From an uncultured Acidimicrobiaceae bacterium (GTDB taxonomy: Bacteria; Actinomycetota; Acidimicrobiia; Spongiisociales; SHLN01), in the NCBI GenBank assembly GCA_947259275.1, contig CAMYMH010000027.1, positions 1 to 64,000 of the forward strand: a stretch of DNA of 64,000 bases, in the 5' to 3' direction. The notes beneath the pieces are model-generated. The model was not told where the DNA came from. It did no database searches and saw only the letters and a list, made by a program, of their open reading frames with translations. The position numbers and the translations under genes are program-made. Positions 43,723 to 55,579 of the stretch are shown here, one piece after another (positions within the stretch are counted from its first letter, which is position 1; each line of letters begins with the position of its first letter).

Positions 43723-44876
43723 CGTCCTGCTCCAATCGCTTCGCTCCAGGCACCCGCCCAGCTGTCGTTCAGGCCGACCACCGATGCGGCGGCACCACCG
43801 AGCTTGAACGGGACCAGGAAGTCGGGTTCCTCGTCTGCCACCACCATAAGCACGGTCTTGCTGTAATCGCGCCCGAGTGTCTCGAATACGGCCAAGTTCT
43901 CATCATCAAGCCGGCCGGTTATCAAGACGAGGGCGCCGCCGGCGTGACCGTGCCGGCGCATCCGGAGAGCCGCATGACGAAGGTCGAGCGCTTCGATCGG
44001 CTGGACGGCAGCCAGTTTCTCCATGGCCAGCTCGTAGGGGGCAGGCCCGGGCGGCCGAACGGTGTCGCCCACCCAGAGCTGGGGCAAGTAGCCGCCGCCG
44101 TAGAAGTGATGCAGCACCGAGGCGGTGCCCTTGACGGCATGTTCGAAGCTCTCCGGCGTGTGGGTGGCGGACCTGGAATCGAGCAGGACCAGGGCCCGCG
44201 ACTGCCAGGGGATCTCGAGCTGACGGATCATGAGCTCGTCCCGCTTGGCCGATGACGGCCAGTGCACTCGCCGGAGGTCGTCGCCCTGGCGGTACTCGCG
44301 GAGGGTGAAGAAGTCGTCCCCCCCGCTGGGCGCGTACGACGGGTGCGCCGACTGTACAGACGGGTCGTGGCCCCGGGTGGTGGGAAACCCGCTGAGAACT
44401 TCAATGGCGGGGTACACCACCAGCCGGTCGACGCCGCCGGTGGTGGTCCTGACGGCCGCCAGGTCGAGTGGATCCGAGATGATGAGGTCGGCAGGGCCGA
44501 TCTGATAGACGCCGCGCGGACGACACACGATCTCATAGTGGGCCGAGACGGTGGTGTTGCGACCGGCCCGCGAGGTGGCAAACCGGGCTCGCCCCAGTTT
44601 GGACACTTCATCCTCGATGATCAGCGGCCGCAGAGGACGGCGAGCGAATATGCGGATCTCGACCCGAGCGCGATCGCCCTCGTGCAGGTGGCGGGGCGTG
44701 ATATGGCGGGTGAGTTTGGCGTCGGGACGCGACCGCCGGACGATCAACGCGCCGGCGATGACCGACCCGAGCAGAAAGATCCCGCCCGCAAACAGCTCGG
44801 CCTCACCGAAGCCGACGAAGAGCAACACGAGCGCGGCGGCGGCGCCGAGAGCCGCCCACCCGCGGGTCGTGATCAT
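43698..44876 (-). CDS. DUF58 domain protein
   Basis: The 392-residue protein has two N-terminal membrane helices and a DUF58 domain whose signature FFTLREYRQGDDLRRVHWPSSAKRDELMIRQ spans about residues 192-222. A von Willebrand A-like C-terminal region (VLLDSRSATH, LVLITGRLDDEN) follows. Such proteins work with MoxR ATPases in assembling or activating envelope complexes. It overlaps the MoxR gene and the TgpA gene, so all three are translated in coupled fashion. Confidence 0.88.
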   Translation of the reverse strand: MITTRGWAALGAAAALVLLFVGFGEAELFAGGIFLLGSVIAGALIVRRSRPDAKLTRHITPRHLHEGDRARVEIRIFARRPLRPLIIEDEVSKLGRARFATSRAGRNTTVSAHYEIVCRPRGVYQIGPADLIISDPLDLAAVRTTTGGVDRLVVYPAIEVLSGFPTTRGHDPSVQSAHPSYAPSGGDDFFTLREYRQGDDLRRVHWPSSAKRDELMIRQLEIPWQSRALVLLDSRSATHTPESFEHAVKGTASVLHHFYGGGYLPQLWVGDTVRPPGPAPYELAMEKLAAVQPIEALDLRHAALRMRRHGHAGGALVLITGRLDDENLAVFETLGRDYSKTVLMVVADEEPDFLVPFKLGGAAASVVGLNDSWAGAWSEAIGAGRWSSASPG

Positions 44877-45850
44877 CGAACGTCTGTCGTCCCAGGGACA
44901 GGGATGGTCGAGGTGATGCGGTCGAGCACTTCGATCACAGAGGCGGCCCGCATCTGCGCCTCGGGACGCAAGATGACCCGGTGGCTCAAGGTGGGGACCA
45001 TGAGCGCCTTCACGTCGTCCGGGGTCACGTAGGCCCGGCCGGTGGCCGCGGCACGGACCCGAGCGGACCGCTGGAGATAGAGCGTGGCGCGGGGTGAGGC
45101 GCCGAGCAGCAAGTCGGGGTCGGAGCGGGTGGCCTCGGCCAGATCTACCAGATAACCCTTGAGCTCGGGCGCCACGTGAACCGCCGAGGCCTGGCGCATC
45201 ATCTCGACCACTTCTTTGGCCTCGAGCACCGGCTCGATGTCCTCGAACACCGAATGATCTCCGTGAGCATCGAGCATCTCGAGCTCCTTGCCGCGGGCGG
45301 GGTAACCGAGCGTCACCCGGGTCATGAACCGATCCAGCTGCGCCTCCGGCAGCGGATAGGTGCCCTCGTGCTCGATCGGATTCTGGGTGGCGATCACCAT
45401 GAAAGGAGGTTCGAGCGGCCGGGTAATCCCGTCGACGGTGACCTGGCGTTCCTCCATCGCTTCCAGTAGTGCCGCCTGGGTCTTGGGACTGGCACGATTG
45501 ATCTCATCACCCAGCACGATGTTGGAAAACACCGGCCCGCGCCGGAACACGAACTTGCCTCGCTCCCGATCCCATACCGAGACACCCGTGAGGTCGGAAG
45601 GCAGCAGGTCGGGAGTGAATTGAATCCTGTGAAAAGAGCAGTCGATGGAACGAGCCAGCGACTTCGCCAGCAATGTCTTGCCCACTCCGGGGACGTCCTC
45701 GACCAGGCAGTGCCCGCCGGCAACCAGCGTCTGGACCACCAGCCGGATCTCATCGTGTTTGCCTTGAATGACCCGTTCGATGTTGGCCACGACCGCGTCG
45801 AACCGCTCTACGAACCAATCCGTGCCGGACTCCACTGGCTCCGCTGTCAA
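44873..45850 (-). CDS. MoxR-family AAA ATPase
   Basis: The 325-residue AAA+ protein has Walker A in EDVPGVGKTLLAKSLA (about 51-66), Walker B NIVLGDEINRASPKTQ near 109-124, sensor FMVIATQNPIEHEGTYPLPEAQ in two parts near 148-170, and the Arg-finger helix region. MoxR ATPases act as chaperones on DUF58/vWA partners. The TTG start has AGGAGA six bases upstream; a GTG at codon six is an alternative. It opens the three-gene cluster. Confidence 0.9.
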   Translation of the reverse strand: MTAEPVESGTDWFVERFDAVVANIERVIQGKHDEIRLVVQTLVAGGHCLVEDVPGVGKTLLAKSLARSIDCSFHRIQFTPDLLPSDLTGVSVWDRERGKFVFRRGPVFSNIVLGDEINRASPKTQAALLEAMEERQVTVDGITRPLEPPFMVIATQNPIEHEGTYPLPEAQLDRFMTRVTLGYPARGKELEMLDAHGDHSVFEDIEPVLEAKEVVEMMRQASAVHVAPELKGYLVDLAEATRSDPDLLLGASPRATLYLQRSARVRAAATGRAYVTPDDVKALMVPTLSHRVILRPEAQMRAASVIEVLDRITSTIPVPGTTDVR

Positions 45851-45918
45851 GGAGGTCTCCTCAGGGATGATGGGATAAACAGCCTATCAGGGGTTCCAAC
45901 ATTAGAGTCAGGTACCCG

Positions 45919-46155
45919 ATGTTCGCGTCCTCGATTCTGCGGGTGGTTATCCGTCGTCCCTCACTGTGGCCCGAAGCCGTGCGTGCCCTCATCGCCTTCA
46001 CCCCCGGGGGTTGGTGGAAGCGGGCCCCGTTTGTCCCGGTGCCGCGGCGAGCTTATCTGCGGTGGCGCATGCAAACCGCCTACGGTTCCGCCGACGCCGC
46101 TCCGATGGCAGAGGACCTCATCCGCTTCCTCGAGTGGCGGAGGAACCAGCGATGA
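45919..46155 (+). CDS. Conserved small basic protein of unknown function
   Basis: The 78-residue Arg/Trp-rich protein begins MFASSILRVVIRRPSLWPEA and ends in AEDLIRFLEWRRNQR. Codons and composition look natural and the stop overlaps the next start (ATGA), so the two belong together. It is divergent from the MoxR gene by 68 bases. I do not recognise a named family. A TAGAGT hexamer lies ten bases upstream. Confidence 0.65.
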   Translation: MFASSILRVVIRRPSLWPEAVRALIAFTPGGWWKRAPFVPVPRRAYLRWRMQTAYGSADAAPMAEDLIRFLEWRRNQR

Positions 46156-46913
46156 ACCGTGCGGCCGATGACCTGACCGCGGCCTTACGCGATCTGCCGG
46201 GGGTGGCCGATGCCGAGCTGGCCGCCGACTCCGCCGAAGGGGTTCGCGTCCGTCTATCCGCCGATGCCGACCCCACCGATGTCGCCGCGGCCGTGCGCGA
46301 CGTGCTCGCCGAGCACGGGCTCAAGGGCAAGATGGCCCCGCCACAGGCCCGGATCGAGCCATCGGGCCCTCCGCCTCCACCGCCGTCGGCCACCATTCTC
46401 CCGGGACCGGGCCTGGTTCAGACCACACTCATACCCGGAGACCAGCTCGAGCAGCCAGTCGATGAGATGGAGACGTTCATGCGGTCTCCCCAGCCAGTTG
46501 CTCGTCCCGAGGAGCAATCCGAGCCCGAGCCCGAACCAACCCATCCGCCGGAACCGGCCGGTGAGCCCGCGGGTGGCCGCGGTCTTCTGTCACGAGTGCG
46601 GGTTCAGGAGGATCGCGACGGGGTCGCCGTGACGGTGGATACCGATGACGGTCGTACGGTCACCCGGCGAGGTCGTCCCAGCGACGCCGGCGTCCGGGAA
46701 GCGGTGGTGGCGGCCGTGGGTGAGCTGTCCGGCGACCAACCGCCTCCCGTCCTGCTCGCCGTCGAGGAGCACGAGCTGGGAGACCACCGCATGATCACCG
46801 TGCTGCTGCAACGACATGATGGGAGCTTCCATGTCGGCTCGGCCCTGGTCGGAGCGGAAAAGGCCTTTGCCCTCGCCCGCGCCGCCTGGGCGGCTATGAG
46901 CCAAGCGCGTTGA
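46152..46913 (+). CDS. Two-domain protein with proline/glutamate-rich linker, function unknown
   Basis: The 253-residue protein has a small N-terminal alpha/beta domain (GVADAELAADSAEGVRVRL, about 1-68), a long flexible Pro/Glu linker (PPPPPPSATIL to EPEPEPTHPPEP, about 75-140), and a C-terminal domain (about 145-253) with VAVTVDTDDGRTVTRRG and ALVGAEKAFALARAAWAAM. It follows the 78-residue gene with ATGA overlap. No family or active-site motif is recognised. Confidence 0.65.
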   Translation: MNRAADDLTAALRDLPGVADAELAADSAEGVRVRLSADADPTDVAAAVRDVLAEHGLKGKMAPPQARIEPSGPPPPPPSATILPGPGLVQTTLIPGDQLEQPVDEMETFMRSPQPVARPEEQSEPEPEPTHPPEPAGEPAGGRGLLSRVRVQEDRDGVAVTVDTDDGRTVTRRGRPSDAGVREAVVAAVGELSGDQPPPVLLAVEEHELGDHRMITVLLQRHDGSFHVGSALVGAEKAFALARAAWAAMSQAR

Positions 46914-46922
46914 TGATTTTCG

Positions 46923-47036
46923 TTTTCTTCGCCTCGTCATGTCACCTTTGGATCAAGGGCGAAGAAAATCGAGTGCTGCCGCCGAACCTGACCTGATCGA
47001 CGGCCGGCGCCGCCGGCGCCAGGCCCAGAGAAACCA
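46923..47036 (+). repeat. Structured repeat element, copy 1
   Basis: Hairpin TTTTCTTCGCC (46923-46933) pairs perfectly with GGCGAAGAAAA (46958-46968) across a 24-base loop. It is followed after six bases by the conserved core (46975-47036), which contains GCTGCCGCCGAACCTG, then ACGGCCGGCGCCGCCGGC, then GCCAGGCCCAGAGAAACC. Confidence 0.8.
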
Positions 47037-47049
47037 TGTTTGCCTTTCG

Positions 47050-47164
47050 ATTTCTCCGCCGCGTTCTCAGCCCCTTTGCGTCAATGGCGAAGAAATACGA
47101 GGGCTGCCGCCGAACCTGAGCTGGGGGACGGCCGGCGCCGCCGGCGCCAGGCCCAGAGAAACCA
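47050..47164 (+). repeat. Structured repeat element, copy 2
   Basis: Hairpin ATTTCTCCGCC (47050-47060) against GGCGAAGAAAT (47086-47096) has one mismatch and a 25-base loop. The core occupies 47103-47164. Confidence 0.8.
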
Positions 47165-47190
47165 TGCTTGCCTTTCGATTTCTCCGCCCC

Positions 47191-47246
47191 GCCGAACCTG
47201 AGCTGGGGGACGGCCGGCGCCGCCGGCGCCAGGCCGAGAGAAACCA
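47191..47246 (+). repeat. Structured repeat element, copy 3 (core only)
   Basis: The core follows directly after a lone left arm (ATTTCTCCGCC ending at about 47187); the right arm of the hairpin and its spacer are deleted. Confidence 0.75.
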
Positions 47247-47259
47247 TGCTTGCCTTTCG

Positions 47260-47374
47260 ATTTCTCCGCCGCGTTCTCAGCCCCTTTGCGTCAATGGCGG
47301 AGAATTACGAGGGCTGCCGCTGAACCTGAGCTGGGGGACGGCCGGCGCCGCCGGCGCCAGGCCCAGCGAAACCC
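47260..47374 (+). repeat. Structured repeat element, copy 4
   Basis: TTCTCCGCC pairs with GGCGGAGAA across a 25-base loop (arms at 47260-47270 and 47296-47306), and the core occupies 47313-47374. Compared with copy 1, one stem pair has changed from T-A to C-G. Confidence 0.8.
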
Positions 47375-47400
47375 CAATGACGCGCGACACTCCGGGGGTC

Positions 47401-47435
47401 TTGGGTCTTGGGTCTTGGGTCTTGGGTCTTGGGTC
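47401..47435 (+). repeat. Heptamer tandem repeat (TTGGGTC)5
   Basis: There are five perfect copies of TTGGGTC, with a degenerate copy before them (GGGGGTC). The array ends at the stop codon of the resolvase-like gene on the opposite strand. Confidence 0.95.
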
Positions 47436-47929
47436 TACGCGTCGCTGGCGGGAATCAGCTCGACGACCACCTCATCGCCGCCATCTTCGTCGTCTTCGGC
47501 TTCCTCTTCCGGCACCGCCGGATAGGCCCACTCGTGGTATTCCTCGAGCCGGGCGAGCACGTCGCGCATGAGCAGGCGTTCTTTGGTCGGGGTCATCAGG
47601 AGGGCATGGTCGGCCTCATTGATCGACATGACCGTGACTCCCCGGCGGCGCAGATCCCAAATGATGATCTCCTGGGTCATCAGGTCGGGGGAGAGGGCGG
47701 TTAGGCCGGGGACCACCACCCCGTCGGCTCCTTTTCCGGCGATGATGCCGAGCAGGGCCTGGTATCCCTCGCGTGCCAGGCCGTGGCCTTCCTGGCGAAC
47801 GTCCTGACACACGGAGACGAGGTTATGTCCGCTCTTGCGAACCCAGGCGCGTATCTCCTCGCCCTGTACAAAGGCAGGATCGGCGTCCTGGGGCGCAAAT
47901 AGTTCTCGAACGTATCCAACGACGCGCAT
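47435..47929 (-). CDS. Resolvase-like (serine recombinase N-terminal domain) protein, probably not catalytic
   Basis: The 164-residue protein has the resolvase fold pattern: VVGYVRE at residues 2-8, QGEEIRAWVRKSGHNLV near 23-39, ADGVVVPGLTALSPD, and a strand/helix with GVTVMSINE. The usual catalytic serine after GYxR (GYARVS) is missing; here the sequence is GYVRELFAPQDAD. There is no DNA-binding C-terminal domain, only an acidic tail (EEEAEDDEDGGDE). It may bind DNA or a partner without cutting. It lies next to an HNH nuclease gene and a repeat cluster. Confidence 0.75.
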   Translation of the reverse strand: MRVVGYVRELFAPQDADPAFVQGEEIRAWVRKSGHNLVSVCQDVRQEGHGLAREGYQALLGIIAGKGADGVVVPGLTALSPDLMTQEIIIWDLRRRGVTVMSINEADHALLMTPTKERLLMRDVLARLEEYHEWAYPAVPEEEAEDDEDGGDEVVVELIPASDA

Positions 47930-48027
47930 CAATCCTCGTAGTGCCAGCGCCACGTAGCGTATCAGAGCAATGACCCTGAGTGGTCTATTGATCGAAGCTG
48001 GGTGGGCGGTGGGCGGTAGGCGGTGCT

Positions 48028-48525
48028 CTAGAACGCCCCCGCCAGATACGGGTGCCAGCTCGGGTGGGGAGGGGCTCCCAGGTTCACCAGGACCCAGCCG
48101 TGGCGGCGGGGAGCGGTGGGCTCGGAGCGAAGTGGCATTCCCGCCTCAACCGGAGTCCGATCGCCCTTCCTCAGGTTGCATCTCCGGCAGGCGGCGACCA
48201 CGTTCTCCCAGGCATGGGGGCCGCCTCGCGACCGGGGGAGGACATGATCGATGTTCTCGGCGCCGGTTCCGCAGTACTGGCATGAGTGGTCGTCACGGGC
48301 GAATACGGCTCGTCGGTTGAGTGCCACCCGCCGGGCATAGGGAACCTTGACGTAGTTCTTGAGGCGAATGACCGACGGGAGCTGGAAGCTCGAACGCTCC
48401 GACCGCCACACCGTTCCGCTCTCCTCGAGCACCACCGCCTTCTGCCGCAGCACCAGGACGATGGCCCGCCGCGCAGACACGATCGACAAAGGCTCGTACG
48501 TCGCGTTCAGGATCAATGCCCGCAT
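48028..48525 (-). CDS. HNH endonuclease
   Basis: The 165-residue protein has an N-terminal beta-rich part (ALILNATYEPLSIVSARRA) and an HNH core from about residue 83. CQYCG and CRRCN hold a zinc ion around the catalytic ENIDHVLPRSRGG, followed by AWENVVAACRRCNLRKGDRTP. This is the widespread stand-alone HNH type in actinobacteria. A TAATCT hexamer lies six bases before the ATG. Its target is unknown. Confidence 0.88.
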   Translation of the reverse strand: MRALILNATYEPLSIVSARRAIVLVLRQKAVVLEESGTVWRSERSSFQLPSVIRLKNYVKVPYARRVALNRRAVFARDDHSCQYCGTGAENIDHVLPRSRGGPHAWENVVAACRRCNLRKGDRTPVEAGMPLRSEPTAPRRHGWVLVNLGAPPHPSWHPYLAGAF

Positions 48526-48531
48526 GGAGCG

Positions 48532-48537
48532 AGATTA
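48532..48537 (-). promoter_or_regulatory. -10 hexamer TAATCT for a leaderless HNH transcript
   Basis: TAATCT lies 6 bases before the HNH ATG at 48525, without a Shine-Dalgarno sequence. Confidence 0.45.
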
Positions 48538-48544
48538 GTGGCCG

Positions 48545-48607
48545 GGAACGCCTTCGGGGTTCCGGGAACGCCTTCGGCGTTCCTAAGGAGTTTGCTTCGC
48601 AAACTCC
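48545..48607 (-). terminator. Three GAA-triloop hairpins downstream of the universal stress gene
   Basis: On the minus strand, stems of 8-9 bp with GAA loops follow the usp stop: GGAGTTTGC/GCAAACTCC (48607-48587), GGAACGCC/GGCGTTCC (48583-48565) and a third with one mismatch (48563-48545). None has a T-run. The stem sequences match those of the dinB-upstream repeat and the 1.5-kb site. Confidence 0.6.
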
Positions 48608-48628
48608 AGGGGGTTCGAGGGCATCGGA

Positions 48629-49141
48629 TCAGATCCGGATCAGTAGGACCGAGCAGGGGGCGTGGCGAGCTACTTTGGAGCCGGTCGAACCGAGCATGCC
48701 TTCGAACAGGCCGCGTCCGGTTGTTCCCATGACGACCAGGTCTGCCTGCTTGGCTCGTAGGTAGTCGAGGATGAGTTTGGCTCCGTTCTCGCCTTCTAGG
48801 ATTTCAACCTCGACTTCAATGCCGGCGGCCTTGAGGGCGGCCACCATAGGGCCGGTTCGCTCCTCCAACTGATTCTTGAGGTAGAGGTCGATGATTGTGT
48901 CGTCGCCGGGGAAGTCGAAGTCGACGCTCGGCTGCGCGGGACTGATGCCGACGTATTCGGCATCGCTGTCGACCACCGGCCCTTTCTGCTCGCCATAGAC
49001 CGAGCGGAGATCTGCCAGCAGGCGCCGCGGGATCTCCACCGCGGTCAGGACGGTCACGGCGCTTCCGTCGGCGTGCGGCGACACAAAACCCGCAGTCATG
49101 TCTGGATCGAGTGATCCGTCGGTGGCGACAACGATATGCAA
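48629..49141 (-). CDS. Universal stress protein (UspA family)
   Basis: The 170-residue protein starts with HIVVATDGSLD and ends with the ATP-binding motif MGTTGRGLFEGMLGSTGSKV, followed by APCSVLLIRI. These are the key features of ATP-binding Usp proteins. The start is TTG, with AAAGGGGA five bases upstream and no competing ATG. It likely responds to stress or growth arrest. Confidence 0.9.
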   Translation of the reverse strand: MHIVVATDGSLDPDMTAGFVSPHADGSAVTVLTAVEIPRRLLADLRSVYGEQKGPVVDSDAEYVGISPAQPSVDFDFPGDDTIIDLYLKNQLEERTGPMVAALKAAGIEVEVEILEGENGAKLILDYLRAKQADLVVMGTTGRGLFEGMLGSTGSKVARHAPCSVLLIRI

Positions 49142-49162
49142 GGCAATCCCCTTTCGGCCGGT

Positions 49163-49897
49163 TCAGCCTACTGTCTGTCCATTGCCCTCTGCCACCGTCC
49201 AGGGGTCTGCTCCGATGAAATCCCGTGCGTCGAACTTCTCACCCGACTCCGCCGTGGGATGAGCGCGCGCCAGGCGAAGGAAGATGGGCATGATGTCTGA
49301 GGGAGCCGGGAGGGTGGCCGGGTCTTCGTCCGGCATCGCTTCGGCCCGCATCGGGGTTGCGGTGCCGCCCGGGTTCACCGAGTACACCGGCCCCTCCCAC
49401 TCGTCGGCCAGGACCTCGAGCCACCCTTCGAGAGCGGATTTCGAGACCGCATACATGCCCCATTCGCCGCGGCCCCTGCGGCCGACCGAGCTCGAGACGC
49501 CGATGATGGTGGCCGTCGGTGACAGCAAGGGGGTCAATAGCTGGTGAAGCAGATGAACGGCCGTCACGTTGATGTGGAAGACCTCATGCCAGGCCGCCTC
49601 CGGATAGTCGGCGAGCGGAACCTTTGGACCGAGTGCTCCTGCCGCGTGCACTACCACATCGATGGGCGAGATCCGCATGGCTTCGGTGGCGACGATCTCC
49701 CGGCCGGTGCGGCTGCCGATGTCGGCCGGCACCGTGATCACCCGCTCGAGATCGAGACCTTGGATGGTCTCCAGTAGGCCAGATTCCCGTCTGGCCGTGG
49801 TCAAGACCCGCGCGCCCTGGGCCGCGTATTGGCGAACCAGCTCGCGCCCGATGCCGGACGAACCACCGGTGACGAGGATCGATCGATCAGAAAGCAT
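49163..49897 (-). CDS. Short-chain dehydrogenase/reductase
   Basis: The 244-residue SDR protein has TGGSSGIGRELVRQYAA (about 10-26), the active serine in GVSSSVGRRG, and YAVSK near 150-154, followed by YSVNPGGTATPMR. It is close to the classical SDRs that use NAD(P)H on unknown alcohols or ketones. A TATGCT hexamer six bases upstream supports the chosen ATG; the longer open frame runs into the methyltransferase gene. Confidence 0.87.
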   Translation of the reverse strand: MLSDRSILVTGGSSGIGRELVRQYAAQGARVLTTARRESGLLETIQGLDLERVITVPADIGSRTGREIVATEAMRISPIDVVVHAAGALGPKVPLADYPEAAWHEVFHINVTAVHLLHQLLTPLLSPTATIIGVSSSVGRRGRGEWGMYAVSKSALEGWLEVLADEWEGPVYSVNPGGTATPMRAEAMPDEDPATLPAPSDIMPIFLRLARAHPTAESGEKFDARDFIGADPWTVAEGNGQTVG

Positions 49898-49903
49898 CCG
49901 GGG

Positions 49904-49909
49904 AGCATA
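49904..49909 (-). promoter_or_regulatory. -10 hexamer TATGCT for a leaderless SDR transcript
   Basis: TATGCT lies 6 bases before the ATG at 49897, without a Shine-Dalgarno sequence. Confidence 0.45.
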
Positions 49910-49928
49910 CGCTCGACCGGCGGCCAGG

Positions 49929-50678
49929 TCAGCTTTGCGACCGGGCGAGTATGAAGAGGCGATTGAAGGGAAACACCGTTTCGCCTCGACTGTTCGGTGG
50001 ATAAGCAGCGGTGATTCGCCGAGCGCACTCCTCCAGATAGGCCGCATGGTGCCTCTCAGGGAGGCGATCGAGAAAGCGCTTCACTCCGGTGGCCGAGACC
50101 CATCGGAAGACCGGGTTCTCGCCGCGCAGGACGTGATAGTAGGTCGTAACCCACACCTCGGTTCGCCCGGCACGCTCGGTCAAGATCTCGTTGTAGTCGT
50201 TGGGTGCCAGCGTCGGAGGTGATGCGATCTCGATGTCGTATTCGGTTCCCACGTCGCGCAGGGTCCGATGCGATGGCTGGTCCCAAGAAAGCGGCATCTG
50301 CACCGCCAGCACGCCGTCGGGAGCGAGCGTCTCCACCAGGCGCGGGAACAGCGCCGGGTGATCGGGAATCCAATGCAGGCTGGAGTTGGCGTAGATCAAT
50401 CTGACCGGAGTCGCCGGGCTCCAGCTCTCGATGTCCGCCAGCTCGTAGGTGACGCCGGTCCGAGGAGCCACCGCGATCATCTCCGGCGAGCGATCGATGC
50501 CGATCACCGATGCGTCCGGCCAGCGGATGGCCAGCTCGGCGGTGAGCCGGCCGGTTCCGCACCCGAGGTCGACGATAAGCCCCGATCCCGAAATCTCGAT
50601 CCGGGCCATGAGATCGTGGGCGGGCTGGATGCGCTCGCCGAAGAACTCCTCGTAGCGGTCGGGGTCCCATTTCGTCAT
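49929..50678 (-). CDS. Class I SAM methyltransferase, trans-aconitate methyltransferase-like
   Basis: The 249-residue enzyme starts WDPDRYEEFFGERIQPAHDL, like Tam. It has the SAM motif IVDLGCGTGRLTAEL (about 33-47), GIDRSPEMI, and LIYANSSLHWIPDHPALFPRLV as in trans-aconitate 2-methyltransferase. The C-terminus contains FRWVSATGVKRFLDRL. The substrate could be trans-aconitate, but distant family members act on other acids. Confidence 0.85.
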   Translation of the reverse strand: MTKWDPDRYEEFFGERIQPAHDLMARIEISGSGLIVDLGCGTGRLTAELAIRWPDASVIGIDRSPEMIAVAPRTGVTYELADIESWSPATPVRLIYANSSLHWIPDHPALFPRLVETLAPDGVLAVQMPLSWDQPSHRTLRDVGTEYDIEIASPPTLAPNDYNEILTERAGRTEVWVTTYYHVLRGENPVFRWVSATGVKRFLDRLPERHHAAYLEECARRITAAYPPNSRGETVFPFNRLFILARSQS

Positions 50679-50732
50679 CGCAGTATCCAACCTCATTAGT
50701 AGGAGGATCTCCAACTCGGACGTCGAAGGCAA

Positions 50733-50738
50733 TACAGT
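50733..50738 (+). promoter_or_regulatory. -10 hexamer TACAGT for a leaderless transcript at 50747
   Basis: TACAGT lies 8 bases before the ATG at 50747, without a Shine-Dalgarno sequence. Confidence 0.35.
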
Positions 50739-50746
50739 GGTCGGCT

Positions 50747-51175
50747 ATGGAAGCTGTCGTGACCGTTGCCGTCGACGTGCCGCTGCTCGGCGATGACCGC
50801 CGCAAGAACTGGGCCAAGGTGGTCGACTACGTCGATACCGACAAGTCGACCGGGTGGGCCTATCACGGCGAGTTCGTGGCCACCGGTGGCATTCAGGACA
50901 TCGGGGCTCCCTGCGTCTTGCTGGTGTACGGCGAGCGGGGCTCGAAGGCCAACCCGCAGCTGGAGGCCCGCGCCTACGTCGTCAACACCGACGGCACCCT
51001 CAGCCTGCACGCCACCGCCACCGGACGAGCATGGGCTCGAACCCTGCGCGACCCGGTGGTCGAGCTGCTAGAGAGCGACGCGCCTCTCTCGGTCCCGTCT
51101 CGGGAGTGGGGTCCCGAGCTCATGCAGTACTCCGATGACGCCTTGCGCACCGAGTTGAAGCGGCGCGGGACGTAG
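50747..51175 (+). CDS. Hypothetical cytosolic protein
   Basis: The 142-residue protein has a beta-rich N-terminal half (VVDYVDTDKSTGWAYHGEF, CVLLVYGERGSKANPQLE, LEARAYVVNTDGTLSLHA) and a short C-terminal tail. There is no signal peptide or membrane helix. I recognise no family. It stands alone, divergent from the methyltransferase gene. Composition and codon use look natural. Confidence 0.65.
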   Translation: MEAVVTVAVDVPLLGDDRRKNWAKVVDYVDTDKSTGWAYHGEFVATGGIQDIGAPCVLLVYGERGSKANPQLEARAYVVNTDGTLSLHATATGRAWARTLRDPVVELLESDAPLSVPSREWGPELMQYSDDALRTELKRRGT

Positions 51176-51221
51176 CCCACCGCCCACCGCCGACCGCCGA
51201 CCGACCACCGATCGTTCCCGG

Positions 51222-51644
51222 TCAGGAACAGAAACTCTTCTGCCAGTCAAAGACGAGGAACGGATTGCCTCGACCGGACCAGCACTTCCAGCGATCACCG
51301 GCCCACTCGATTGCCCACCCCTCGCGACTTCGAAGGAACACCACGCGGGTCTGTTCGGCTCGCGCTGAATCGTCGCGTAGGTCGTGATCGGTGATCGTCG
51401 CAACGCAGCTGTCCCTGTCGCAGCTGAGGTGGACCTCATCGGGTTGTATTCCGTCGACGTTGGGGTTCCCGGCGAGCCGCATCGCCTCGGTGAGGAGTTC
51501 CCCCCTGGTTAACAGTTCTTCCGGGACCGTCCCTCGTTCGTGGAACTCCCGGCGAAACGTCGTTGTGACATCGAACACGATTGCGACGATCAGGATCAGG
51601 AAGAGTGAGAGAACGACTCGACGAACCGCGATCTTCTCCCGCAC
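51222..51644 (-). CDS. Membrane-anchored hypothetical protein
   Basis: The 140-residue protein has an N-terminal signal anchor (VVLSLFLILIVAIVFDV, about residues 9-26) and an extracytoplasmic domain. Two cysteine pairs (LSCDRDSCVA and WKCWS with a final FCS) may form disulfides. AAGGAGG lies five bases before the GTG start, clearly better than starts further upstream, which run into the repeat element. No family is recognised. Confidence 0.65.
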   Translation of the reverse strand: MREKIAVRRVVLSLFLILIVAIVFDVTTTFRREFHERGTVPEELLTRGELLTEAMRLAGNPNVDGIQPDEVHLSCDRDSCVATITDHDLRDDSARAEQTRVVFLRSREGWAIEWAGDRWKCWSGRGNPFLVFDWQKSFCS

Positions 51645-51702
51645 CGCTGCCTCCTTGCTGCGTAATTGTGACGCCACGGCCCCTTGGTCGGTTCCTGTGT
51701 TG

Positions 51703-51818
51703 TGGTTTCTCTGGGCCTGGCGCCGGCGGAGCCGGCCGTCCCACATGGCAGGTTCGGCGGCAGCAGACCTTTTCTCGGCCGTCGATTCGACGGTGCCATG
51801 ACGCGGCCGAGAAAAGGT
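51703..51818 (-). repeat. Structured repeat element, copy 5 (reverse orientation)
   Basis: On the minus strand, hairpin ACCTTTTCTCGGCC (51818-51805) pairs perfectly over 14 bp with GGCCGAGAAAAGGT (51780-51767) across a 24-base loop. Then after two bases comes the conserved core (51764-51703). The order, loop length and core match copies 1, 2 and 4 near 47 kb. Confidence 0.8.
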
Positions 51819-51830
51819 GGAGGGGAATAG

Positions 51831-51859
51831 TTGACAAGTGGGAGAAAAGGGACCATAGT
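51831..51859 (+). promoter_or_regulatory. Promoter of the dcw operon, TTGACA-N17-CATAGT
   Basis: A perfect -35 TTGACA (51831-51836) is followed after 17 bases by CATAGT (51854-51859). The layout matches the ilvB promoter. The MraZ operator overlaps the spacer and -10. Confidence 0.75.
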
Positions 51860-51871
51860 GGCGCGAAGTGG
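51837..51871 (+). promoter_or_regulatory. MraZ operator: four direct repeats at 10-bp spacing
   Basis: AGTGG (51837), AAGGG (51847), AGTGG (51857) and AGTGG (51867) recur every ten bases, the geometry of MraZ-binding sites (TGGGN5-type repeats). The position on the promoter implies autorepression of mraZ and the dcw genes. Confidence 0.8.
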
Positions 51872-51927
51872 AGGACCAAGCCACGAGCCTCTGAGGCTCA
51901 CCGAGGACGGGCAGACAGGATGGAATC

Positions 51928-52359
51928 GTGTTTCTGGGAGAGCACCAACACACCATCGACCCGAAGGGTCGCGTCGTGCTCCCTAGCCGTTTTCGCGACG
52001 ATCTCGCCAAGGGGTGCTACATCACCAAGGGCCAGGATCGCTGCCTCTTTGTCTTCACTCCCAAACAATGGGAACAAGAAGTCGAGCGAATTCGCTCACT
52101 TCCCCGCACGGATCGCCGGCTTCGCAACTATTCTCGGGTCTTCTTCGCTGGAGCCAGCGACCAGAAACTGGATAAGCAGGGAAGGATTCAGATTCCTGCC
52201 AGCCTGCGCGAATACGCCGGCCTCGAAAAAGAGGTCTGCGTGGTTGGCGTGGGTGAGCGGGTCGAGATTTGGAACGCCGGCACGTGGCAGGATGTCACCA
52301 CCAACGCCGACGCCGAGTACAGCGACATCGAAGAAGCCCTCAGCGAGCAGGGCATTTGA
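51928..52359 (+). CDS. mraZ: Transcriptional regulator MraZ
   Basis: The 143-residue protein has two AbrB/SpoVT-like swapped-hairpin repeats with the paired DxxGR motifs: IDPKGRVVLPSRFRD (about 10-24) and LDKQGRIQIPASLREYA (about 82-98). It forms ring-shaped oligomers that bind the repeats upstream. The GTG start has AGGATGG upstream. It is the first gene of the division and cell wall cluster and ends 22 bases before the anomalous rsmH 5' end. Confidence 0.93.
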   Translation: MFLGEHQHTIDPKGRVVLPSRFRDDLAKGCYITKGQDRCLFVFTPKQWEQEVERIRSLPRTDRRLRNYSRVFFAGASDQKLDKQGRIQIPASLREYAGLEKEVCVVGVGERVEIWNAGTWQDVTTNADAEYSDIEEALSEQGI

Positions 52360-52400
52360 AGCTCAGGAGGACCAAGCAACTGAAAACGTAGGGCAGGGTT

Positions 52401-52488
52401 CATTGCCAGCCCCCCGGATGCCATATGGAAGGCCCCTTACTCCGCCCGCTTCCATTTTGGCGCCAGCGCTCCGGGGGGCTGGCAATGC
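52401..52488. repeat. 18-bp perfect inverted repeat around the expected rsmH start
   Basis: CATTGCCAGCCCCCCGGA (52401-52418) and its exact reverse complement (52470-52487) enclose 51 bases. The right arm ends just where RsmH similarity begins. See the rsmH entry. Confidence 0.9.
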
Positions 52489-53391
52489 CTGGTCGAGCAG
52501 GTAGCCGATCTCTTCCGACCGATCGAAGCCGGTGTCATCATCGACGCCACCTTCGGCGGGGGCGGGCACACCCGGCGACTCCTGGAGGTGCTCGGCCCGG
52601 ACGTCCGGTTCCTAGCTCTCGACCGGGACCCGGCGGCGGAGGACCGCGCCGCCACGCTCGGCCCCAGGGTTCGCTTCGTGGCCTCCGATTTCCGACACCT
52701 CACCGAAGTCACTGAGGAGGCGGATATCGATGCGATCACGGGCGTCTTCTTTGATCTTGGACTTTCCTCTCTACAGCTGGACGACGGCGCGCGAGGTTTT
52801 GGCTTTCGCCGAAGCGGCCCTCTTGATATGCGGATGGGTGCTGGTGAACTCACCGCCGGTGAAATCGTCAACCAGTGGAGCGAAGCGGACCTCCGCCGGG
52901 TCATCGCCCGCTATGGAGAGGAACGCTTCGCCGGCCGGGTCGCCCGCGCCATTGTCGGGGCCCGTCCGATTGAGGACACCGTATCGCTGGCTGAGATCGT
53001 CAAACTGGCGATACCGGCCGCGACCCGTCGCACCGGTGGTCACCCGGCCCGGCGGACCTTTCAGGCCCTCCGCATCGTCGTCAACGACGAGCTGGCCGCG
53101 CTGGAAGCGGGCCTCGACGCCGCCCTCGAGCTCCTCGAGCCCGGAGGTCGCGTCGTGGTGATCTCTTATCACTCCCTCGAAGATCGCATAGTCAAGCGGC
53201 GGCTGGTGTCAGCCTCCTCCTCACCGGATGACACTTCCCTCCCGGTTGTGACACCAGTCGCCGCTCCCGAATACCGCTTGCTGTTCCGCAAGCCGATGAC
53301 TCCCACTGAAGAGGAGATCGCCGACAACCCACGGGCGCGCAGCGCCAAGCTCCGCGCCGCCGAACGAGCTACCCGAGGGAGTGGTGTCTGA
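52489..53391 (+). CDS. rsmH: 16S rRNA (cytosine1402-N4)-methyltransferase, start unresolved
   Basis: From codon 52489 the protein reads LVEQVADLFRPIEAG and then ATFGGGGHTRRLLEVLG, which matches RsmH. The rest is intact (FFDLGLSSLQLDDGARGFGF, HPARRTFQALRIVVNDEL, ISYHSLEDRIVKR). The expected N-terminal HxPVL is replaced: the frame is open back to a TGA at 52381 with no ATG, GTG or TTG before a GTG at 52588, which would remove the SAM-binding GGGGH. The region 52401-52487 is an 18-bp inverted repeat. The first ~10 residues are therefore lost or altered, or initiation uses a rare codon (ATT at 52402 or CTG at 52489). Confidence 0.8.
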   Translation: MVEQVADLFRPIEAGVIIDATFGGGGHTRRLLEVLGPDVRFLALDRDPAAEDRAATLGPRVRFVASDFRHLTEVTEEADIDAITGVFFDLGLSSLQLDDGARGFGFRRSGPLDMRMGAGELTAGEIVNQWSEADLRRVIARYGEERFAGRVARAIVGARPIEDTVSLAEIVKLAIPAATRRTGGHPARRTFQALRIVVNDELAALEAGLDAALELLEPGGRVVVISYHSLEDRIVKRRLVSASSSPDDTSLPVVTPVAAPEYRLLFRKPMTPTEEEIADNPRARSAKLRAAERATRGSGV

Positions 53392-53804
53392 TGGCCGCCC
53401 GCACCGCCCCGCTCGGGATCCCTCGCTCCCGCCTCCGGGTCATACCCGGCAAGTCACGCAATCCGGCGCGCATCGGAGTACGCCAGCTCGGATGGCTGGT
53501 GGTGGCCATCGCCATGTTCTTCGCCCTCATCTACTCGCGCATCTTTCTCGATCGGGCGGCCTTCCAAATCACCAACCTCGAGGGGCTGATTTCTGAACAG
53601 GAGACCCGGTTCGACGAACTGCGGCTCCAAGTCGCCCAGTTGGAGTCGCCACAGCGGATCTACGCCGAGGCGCAGCGCATGGGGATGGTGCTGCCGGAAG
53701 AAGCGCGAACGGTTTCGGCACCGATGCCGGTCCCGGCAGATGAGATTGGTGAGTTGGCGTCGGCGGGAAAGTCGCCACTCATAGCCACAGTGGGGTCGCG
53801 ATGA
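53391..53804 (+). CDS. ftsL: Cell division protein FtsL-like
   Basis: The 137-residue protein has a basic N-terminus, one transmembrane helix (WLVVAIAMFFALIYSRIFLD, about 34-53) and a leucine-zipper-like coiled coil (EGLISEQETRFDELRLQVAQLE). This is the FtsL/septum-formation-initiator layout between rsmH and ftsI. Its ATG shares one base with the rsmH stop. It likely recruits FtsI and FtsW to the septum. Confidence 0.85.
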   Translation: MAARTAPLGIPRSRLRVIPGKSRNPARIGVRQLGWLVVAIAMFFALIYSRIFLDRAAFQITNLEGLISEQETRFDELRLQVAQLESPQRIYAEAQRMGMVLPEEARTVSAPMPVPADEIGELASAGKSPLIATVGSR

Positions 53805-53860
53805 CCGGGCTGATCGCTGCACCTGGTTGCGGTGACTCGGGCCGGTCGGAGCACTAGCGC

Positions 53861-55579
53861 ATGGGGCGCAAGCGATGGCGCCCCCAGCATCTGCGACTCT
53901 TCTTCGTCGGCGCCTTCTTCATTGCGGCCTGGGGCGTCATCGCGGTCAAGCTCGTATTCGTGCAGGGTGTCCAGGCACAGACTCTGGAGGACCAGGCCCT
54001 CGATCAGCGGCTTCGAACCATCACCCTGGAAGCGGATCGCGGGACCATCTACGATCGGGACGGTCGGGAGTTGGCGCTCACTATCGAGGCAACCACCGTC
54101 TACGCCAACCCGCATGAAATCACCGAACCCGGCCTGACGGCGGCAGCTCTGTCTGGACTGCTCGGCCGCCCGGTCGGTGAAATCCAGGCGGAGTTGGAGG
54201 GCGACACGAGTTTCGTCTATGTCGCTCGCAAGCTGCTACGTCACGAGGCCGACCCGATTCGTGAGCTTGACCTCGACGGCATCCATTTCGTGGCCGAGCC
54301 GAAGCGGGTGTATCCCTCGGGCAACCTGGCCGCCCAGGTGCTCGGCTTCGTCGGCACCGATAACGGCGGGCTCGAGGGCATCGAGCACTTCTATGAGGAC
54401 GTACTGGCGGGCCGGCCGGGTCAGCTCATATTTGAGCGGTCGGGACGCGGTCGGGTCATTCCCCAGGGGGAGTACGAGGTACGGGAGGCGGTGCGGGGCC
54501 AGGACCTGGCACTCACCATCGACGGTGAGCTGCAGTTCTTCGCTCAACAAGAGGCCATGACCGCGCGCGAGGAAACGGGAGCCAAAGCGGTACACATCGT
54601 CGTCCTAGACGTGACCACCTTCGAGGTTCTGGCGATGGCAAGTGCTCCTACCTTCGATCCAAACCATATCGGCCGCGACTCGGATCTGTTCCGGAATCGG
54701 GTGGTCACCGACACCTTCGAGCCCGGTTCCACCCAAAAACTGATCACGGTGGCCGCTGCCATCGAGGAAGGCATCGTCACCCCCGAACGGATCTTCGAGG
54801 TGCCCGACAACATTCAGGTATTCGATCGCGAGTACTTTGACTTCTCGGAGCACGAGACCCAAGACATGGCGGTCGCCGACATAGTCGCGCAGTCGTCCAA
54901 CGTCGGGACCATCCTCATCTGGCAGGAGCTCGGGGACGAGCTCCTCTATCGGTATCTGCAGGGCTTCGGCCTCGGCACCTACTCCGGAATCGACTTCCCG
55001 GGCGAGGTGCCCGGGGTGCTGCAGCCGGAGGAGAAGTGGTGTGATTCCTGTGGTGCGTCCACCTCCATCGGCTACCGGGTGGCCGTCACCCCGCTGCAGA
55101 TGACATCTGTCTTCGCCACGGTCGGCAACGACGGCGTTTGGATGCAGCCGCGGGTGGTCGATGCCATCATCGAGCCAGGCGGCGAGTCGGCCAGCTTGAA
55201 TCAGCAGACCCATCAGGTCTTGTCTGCCGAGACTGCCGGGATCATGCGCCAGTTGCTCACCGGCGTGGTGGAGAGCGGGACCGGCCAGCTCGCCCAGGTT
55301 CCCGGCTATTCGGTCGGTGGCAAAACCGGCACCACCGAGAAGTTCGAGCCCGATCTCCTGTGCCCGGGAGCGACGGTGCCCGGATGCTATGGCGACGATG
55401 TGGTCGCCAGTTTCATCGGCATCGGACCAAGTGACAGCCCTCGACTCGCCATCGGGGTTTTTGTCGATTCACCGAGCGTCGACAAGAAGCGGACCGGTGG
55501 GGTGACGGCGGCGCCGGTGTTCTCACGGGTGATGCGTTTCGCCCTTCATCAGCTGGGGGTCCCGCCCGATGCCCGCTGA
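53861..55579 (+). CDS. ftsI: Septal peptidoglycan transpeptidase (class B PBP3/FtsI)
   Basis: The 572-residue protein has a membrane anchor (LFFVGAFFIAAWGVIAVKLV), the pedestal RGTIYDRDGRELA (about 60-72), and the transpeptidase motifs PGSTQK with Ser near 288, SSN near 344 and KTGTT near 487. It cross-links septal peptidoglycan. It starts 56 bases after ftsL, the largest gap in the operon after mraZ, and overlaps murE by 11 bases. Confidence 0.94.
   Translation: MGRKRWRPQHLRLFFVGAFFIAAWGVIAVKLVFVQGVQAQTLEDQALDQRLRTITLEADRGTIYDRDGRELALTIEATTVYANPHEITEPGLTAAALSGLLGRPVGEIQAELEGDTSFVYVARKLLRHEADPIRELDLDGIHFVAEPKRVYPSGNLAAQVLGFVGTDNGGLEGIEHFYEDVLAGRPGQLIFERSGRGRVIPQGEYEVREAVRGQDLALTIDGELQFFAQQEAMTAREETGAKAVHIVVLDVTTFEVLAMASAPTFDPNHIGRDSDLFRNRVVTDTFEPGSTQKLITVAAAIEEGIVTPERIFEVPDNIQVFDREYFDFSEHETQDMAVADIVAQSSNVGTILIWQELGDELLYRYLQGFGLGTYSGIDFPGEVPGVLQPEEKWCDSCGASTSIGYRVAVTPLQMTSVFATVGNDGVWMQPRVVDAIIEPGGESASLNQQTHQVLSAETAGIMRQLLTGVVESGTGQLAQVPGYSVGGKTGTTEKFEPDLLCPGATVPGCYGDDVVASFIGIGPSDSPRLAIGVFVDSPSVDKKRTGGVTAAPVFSRVMRFALHQLGVPPDAR

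Follow-up and report, generated by a model that had tools for sequence, protein, structure and literature searches.

A 64,000-nucleotide stretch of DNA from a metagenome-assembled genome (MAG) of the class Acidimicrobiia (3.85 Mb in 97 contigs; the whole stretch, hereafter the window, lies on contig 27) carries five copies of a short repeat, four of them full and one reduced to its core, in which two hairpins are preserved by compensatory changes. We find that this element is dispersed through the genome and its relatives and that it is probably a non-autonomous intergenic repeat similar to REPINs or to miniature inverted-repeat transposable elements (MITEs), which would fold as a single strand and be moved in trans. 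All five copies stand at the places and in the orientations given by the original prediction, and its proposal of a REP/MITE-like dispersed element is supported by 47 matches in the same genome together with copies in relatives. Throughout, G000 denotes the MAG holding the window and G001 to G006 its relatives, while copies 1 to 4 make up site A and copy 5 makes up site B.

Further copies, expected in the genome and its relatives if the element is a dispersed one, proved to be numerous. A blastn search with copy 2 returned 54 places in G000 at E ≤ 10, and a covariance model trained on 44 copies drawn from six genomes gave 47 matches at E ≤ 1 and 43 at E ≤ 1e-3, a count that derives from the scoring of 150 of 6673 first-look candidates and does not include the core-only copy 3. 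Two of the matches, C32:46434 and C44:45, probably represent a single copy split by a contig break, so that 46 is the better count. In 400 kb of other G000 stretches, which served as a control, the model had no match at E ≤ 1. With stricter filters, under which some weak matches are lost, the element was detected in 7 of 138 genomes of the order (the other 131 gave no model match at E ≤ 1e-3) and in 7 of 395 genomes of the class, in both cases within one family, which contributes eight genomes to the order-wide set. Copy 2 had no blastn match in phages, plasmids or E. coli genomes and viral contigs gave no match to one exact pattern, and on the phage, plasmid and viral-contig results carriage by a phage or plasmid was rejected. 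In a limited literature search, none of the titles listed dealt with such repeats in Acidimicrobiia.

The element is about 120-130 bp long and a full copy consists, in order, of a pyrimidine-rich lead, a first hairpin (H1), a conserved box, a variable linker, a second hairpin (H2) and an end like GRGAAACC. Among the 89 copies assembled in all, 17 failed the H1 parse, being truncated or having the hairpin replaced, which left 72; three mis-registered rows were then removed for the arm and wobble statistics, leaving 69. H1 has a stem of 11-14 bp and a loop of 24-25 nt of free sequence (57 of 69 copies have a loop of this length), dimensions that agree with those first described. The box reads G-Y-TGCC-R-C (consensus GTGCTGCCGCCGG), and H2 is a GC-rich stem carrying a bulged base, GGCC-GGCGCC-GCC-GGCGCC-A-GGCC. 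What had been taken for a GC-rich core is indeed conserved, but it itself holds this second covarying hairpin. A tail like ATGACGCGCGACACTC comes after many of the copies, and by eye the only inverted repeat near the element ends is TTTCTC/GAGAAA. Some frame is open for at least 38 codons in 77 of 79 copies, a figure that is uncontrolled for high GC content and uninformative on coding. As a separate observation, there are composite copies (L249:3655-3769, L251:3586-3693, L257:3435-3529, L262:3481-3579 and others) in which small hairpins such as GCAGTTGCGAAGCAACTGC and GCTGCCCGGAGGGCAGC either take the place of H1 or are joined to it, the core end being unchanged, and an apparent extra small hairpin is seen by eye at the tip of H2 in G002:C12, C173, C154 and C99, in G004:C115 and C76 and in G005:C350.

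The covariation of the stems is real. When 44 copies are aligned with MAFFT, 94.2% of cells pair compared to 89.7% after shuffling, both sides change at 11 of 24 pairs (4.8 on average after shuffling; 1-6 in slid versions) and the covariation score is reached by none of 500 shuffles, the structure having been drawn from the copies themselves and so not being independent of them. The H1 arms within a copy pair at 10.70 of 11 positions, a value that drops to 9.26 once arms from different copies are combined (n = 69), and the stem is perfect in 49 of the 69. When arms were permuted within a genome, the observed pairing was reached in 0 of 5000 permutations in G000, G001 and G002 and in 6 of 5000 in G004. 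Across the 51 copies whose upper stem is intact, the lower stem of H2 is GGCC/GGCC in 36, GACT/AGTC in four, GAAC/GTTC in two and GGCT/AGCC in two. An extra pair that closes the TGCC of the box, also proposed by RNAalifold, is C..G in 60 copies, T..A in six, C..A in one and T..G in none, with two unparsed (n = 69). The covariation first noticed in five copies thus stays above shuffled and slid controls in a larger set and, with the further copies, supports the view of a selected folded nucleic acid.

Departures from perfect pairing also carry information on which strand folds. On the top strand, C.A or A.C departures outnumber T.G or G.T departures by 14 to 3 in the 69-copy set (p = 0.013), and before row removal the corresponding count was 17 to 5 (H1, 11 bottom and 4 top; H2, 6 and 1, from the copies with an intact upper stem). 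Because a C.A or A.C on the top strand is a G.T wobble on its complement, we infer that the bottom strand is the likelier one to fold. An H1 loop pairing with the 3' tail that seemed promising by eye was rejected, as 2912 of 3000 permutations reached it.

Comparison of sites between genomes indicates that the copies look both mobile and old. At two G000 sites, C11 and C23, the element is present whereas the four congeners G001 to G004 have gaps of 53-156 nt without it; in G006, C11 is too different for a judgement, and at C23 the gap measures 116 nt. Seven other G000 loops match the C11 loop at 84-96% identity, a pattern in keeping with recent copying. On the side of age, 13 of 42 loci fetched from relatives correspond to a G000 element site, and all 13 hold the element in the G000 orientation, where fewer than one shared site is expected by chance (with 35 sites and roughly 2,400 gaps in a genome, extrapolated from the 284 counted in 464 kb); one of the 13, G003:C187, was judged from one flank, with 355 versus 118 nt. 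In 19 same-site pairs, some of them between relatives, loops are 0.49 identical and arms 0.84, while unrelated copies of different genomes have loop identities of 0.50 and random 24-mers 0.44 (H2 identity for these pairs was taken at fixed offsets and is rough). Arms that are alike beside loops that are near random indicate that the fold has been kept and free sequence replaced. Site A is filled in G002 and empty in G001, G003, G004 and G006, and at site B the element is present in G006, where its stem differs but is paired, and absent from G002, G003 and G004; the flank tree places G000 relative to G002 with a support of 0.74, too low to order gain and loss at these two sites. We also considered strict parallel turnover of arms by genome, of which G002 and G003 give a hint, and make no strong claim for it, given that arm identity is 0.84 at the same site, 0.83 between unrelated copies of different genomes and 0.85-0.91 within the four genomes with at least nine copies. 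In G002, seven of 12 copies have an identical arm pair despite differing loops, and in G003 one arm pair is the sole one (3 of 3).

Taken together, our favored interpretation is that the element folds as a single-stranded hairpin, probably from the bottom strand, that an enzyme acting in trans would copy or move this folded strand, that new copies would settle where an intergenic gap tolerates them, frequently between convergent genes, and that settled copies would then be inherited vertically with their fold under selection. Spread would on this account be slow and, as it appears, accompanied by persistence, and the element would work like a REPIN, without evidence of being one. Several points weigh against this interpretation. 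The comparison of private sites covers the two sites C11 and C23. Four sites are common only to relatives and in two of them (the gaps G001:C71/G002:C80 and G001:C111/G004:C90) the elements have opposite orientations, which argues that some sites are re-used, and the shared-site record could reflect hot spots. The model search detects copies that keep the fold and misses decayed ones. At the empty sites A, B, C11 and C23 no target-site duplication was recognised, the flanking DNA having diverged too far for the exact junction to be placed, and neither a terminal inverted repeat beyond about 6 bp nor an autonomous version of the element was seen. The wobble count is small and comes from related copies. 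Finally, a linked RAYT or Y1 transposase was not found: the Y1 domain (PF01797) is present in none of the eight family genomes (neither G000 nor the seven relatives), in a search whose control was positive in 5 of 14 genomes and whose family genomes are 72-95% complete, seven of them 72-89%.

The copies are also associated with tandem arrays. Within 150 nt, a perfect array occurs on the core side of 31 of 89 copies and on the H1 side of none, compared to 3 of 1000 random windows of the 64-kb window with coding DNA included. Periods of 5-10 were allowed and all arrays found have a period of 7, with a unit that differs between sites; in 30 distinct arrays the G-rich strand is the element top strand in 22, the top strand is C-rich in four and four are tied. 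A survey of 464 kb yielded 15 perfect intergenic arrays of period 4-15, 12 with period 7 and two with period 14; the 12 perfect 7-bp arrays are all intergenic and one of them stands beside a copy. At the empty C23 site, G002 has a 7-bp array without the element. As arrays also stand alone, their status as a part of the element is not proven; they are a general feature of these gaps, placed and oriented relative to the element. This one-sided, strand-oriented arrangement goes beyond a simple MITE model, and a bolder and rather unlikely extension would be a REPIN-like population of single-stranded hairpins in Actinomycetota that is driven by a non-Y1 enzyme, whose activity, or the DNA break that it makes on the core side, also seeds or orients the mostly G-rich arrays. 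Were this true, the hairpin-core-array composite would be the product of one copying process. Some 7-bp arrays in G000 reach 90 nt (e.g. L305:14826-14915 and L310:3168-3256).

Genomic context bears on the alternative that the host maintains the structure, as DNA or RNA, for a service at each site, such as ending transcripts, insulating convergent genes or marking a nucleoid or topoisomerase site read by a host factor. With genes called by a codon-usage script, 34 of 35 G000 site clusters lie outside predicted genes and one overlaps, and some sites hold the element in tandem. At the 32 sites with two neighbours, 12 gaps are convergent, eight divergent and 12 co-directional, compared to 46 convergent gaps out of 284 in a baseline sample. 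Where the upstream gene is sense, the element begins at most 31 nt past its stop codon at 15 of 21 sites, which would fit a local service, as would the alike arms and near-random loops of the same-site pairs and the identical arm pair in seven G002 copies. Against this, orientation to the upstream gene is mixed (20 sense, 12 antisense), both of the sites tested for private copies proved to be private to G000, and at sites A and B the element is missing from several relatives whose flanking genes still align. The short stop-codon distances, moreover, may be a matter of geometry, because the site A gap is just 0-25 nt in G001, G003 and G004 and such tiny pre-insertion gaps also yield them. We consider host maintenance unlikely as the explanation of the element.

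Alternatively, the H1 arms could be half-sites for a dimeric protein on duplex DNA, covarying without a hairpin, as their inverted arrangement, the nearly fixed spacer and the predominance of one arm pair in G002 and its exclusive use in G003 might suggest. Against this, different arm types coexist in a genome with each copy matched to itself, as in the permutations of G000 to G002, H2 and the box pair covary as well and mismatches favor G.T on one strand, making this quite improbable. Two conserved, covarying hairpins would also fit small RNAs or leaders of the riboswitch-like type, but the mixed orientation to genes argues against a leader or 3' untranslated RNA as a general role, no Rfam family reaches its gathering score in window positions 44000-54000 (four weak matches fall far below it) and copy 5 lies upstream of the -35-like site of mraZ and hence outside its leader, such that we regard this possibility as very improbable. 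Integron-like attC sites, which in general terms share hairpin variation and an inferred folding of the bottom strand with our element, can scarcely be the answer, as no integron integrase exceeds the curated cut-off in six genomes (there are matches below the cut-off, as in 14 of 14 control genomes) and the tandem copies examined enclose no cassettes.

Within the window, the copies that led to this element are arranged as follows. Copy 1 is full and spans 46913..47041 on the plus strand (covariance model, 135.4 bits, and sequence), its H1 comprising a left arm TTTTCTTCGCC at 46923-46933, a 24-nt loop at 46934-46957 and a right arm GGCGAAGAAAA at 46958-46968, and its H2 lying at 47002-47025 (read from the sequence). 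Copies 2 (47040..47169; 137.6 bits) and 4 (47250..47379; 135.9 bits) are likewise full, plus-strand model matches, whereas the plus-strand copy 3, at about 47189..47247 (nhmmer, profile 64-122; blastn 99%), holds the core only. The proposal that arms remain paired stands for copies 1 and 5 but requires amendment for copy 2, which has one C.A mismatch (ATTTCTCCGCC/GGCGAAGAAAT), and for copy 4, which has one T.T mismatch. Similarly, copy 3 has lost the loop and right arm of H1, in line with a core-only deletion, but keeps the left arm just upstream. Copy 4 is followed on the plus strand by the tail ATGACGCGCGACACTC... at 47376..47395, recognised by eye from the downstream sequences of 34 sites, and then, on the same strand and on the core side, by a perfect 7-bp GGGTCTT array at 47396..47436 that runs up to the stop codon of a convergent gene. 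Copy 5 is full and lies on the minus strand at 51698..51825 (118.4 bits and sequence), with a perfect 15-bp inverted repeat as H1. Its H1-side model end, 51825, is 5 nt from a -35-like TTGACA at 51831-51836 upstream of mraZ, in agreement with its reported position near the dcw promoter; in a comparison of MraZ, the nearest named records are the MAG contigs JAUXJL010000012.1, JAUXLW010000035.1 and SHLN01000074.1.

A resolvase-like gene at 47435-47953 (Pfam Resolvase match) does lie beside copies 1-4 as originally noted, but it has no special tie to them: G001, G003, G004 and G006 have the gene at the same place without the repeats, and a link between the two was rejected. In G006 (C11:858-1402) a resolvase-like gene, compared with the window, is inverted relative to its neighbours. 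Beside copy 5, a predicted gene at 51222-51644 has a hydrophobic N-terminus by eye and no Pfam match, and the equivalent place in G003 and G004 has no room for it. Small tandem palindromes at 48542-48613 (GGGAACGCCTTCGGCGTTCC, GAGTTTGCTTCGCAAACTC), with matches at many places in relatives, represent a further dispersed hairpin family whose members may be terminators.

Set against known repeats, the element would be a new family of the general palindromic kind and not a member of the REP or CIR families, because the Y1 and GTAG features of REPs and the GANTC feature of CIRs fail. REPINs are described as intergenic, with conserved inverted arms, a spacer limited in length and foldability, and compensatory changes (PMC3116915), and their populations persist long (PMC8049555). 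Our element likewise has a hairpin kept by compensatory changes around a free spacer of fixed length; it differs in its second, asymmetric GC-rich hairpin and its 24-25 nt loop, and from the REP/RAYT system in the family's lack of Y1 or RAYT in eight genomes and of a GTAG tag at the base of the hairpin (0 of 72 copies). The palindromic CGTC REPs are described as having no dedicated transposase known, stems of 8-9 bp, loops of 4-5 nt and a TGTC tag variant (PMC3733652); TGTC precedes 17 of 72 arms here, but stems are at least 11 bp, loops are 24-25 nt and TTCG precedes 39 of 72 arms. The CIRs of Caulobacter and Brucella, as the cited text presents them, are intergenic and partly MITE-like, with two arms, a linker and GANTC in the loop (PMC2229807), which recalls H1 and H2 joined by a linker, whereas GANTC occurs in H1 of 7 of 72 copies. 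BOX, RUP and SPRITE are reported to be over-represented between convergent genes, and BOX to be modular (PMC3049150, PMC2229807). Like these and ERIC/IRU, ours is a small intergenic repeat, some copies of which are modular as BOX is, but compared with ERIC, BOX, RUP and SPRITE as the cited passages portray them it is GC-rich and has no clear terminal inverted repeat or target-site duplication; it is further set apart from ERIC by the absence of a blastn match to copy 2 in the E. coli collection. It resembles MITEs in being short and dispersed, with sites private to G000. G-rich heptamer arrays are described between genes of Xanthomonas and Nostoc (PMC4692102), and those reported here are similarly 7-bp, intergenic and G-rich on one strand, but vary in unit by site and stand on one side of a hairpin element. 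In the papers cited here, palindromic repeats are tied to Y1 transposases or, for CGTC REPs, to no known enzyme, and a family from Actinomycetota without Y1 therefore offers defined filled, empty and shared sites at which to seek what moves RAYT-less palindromes.

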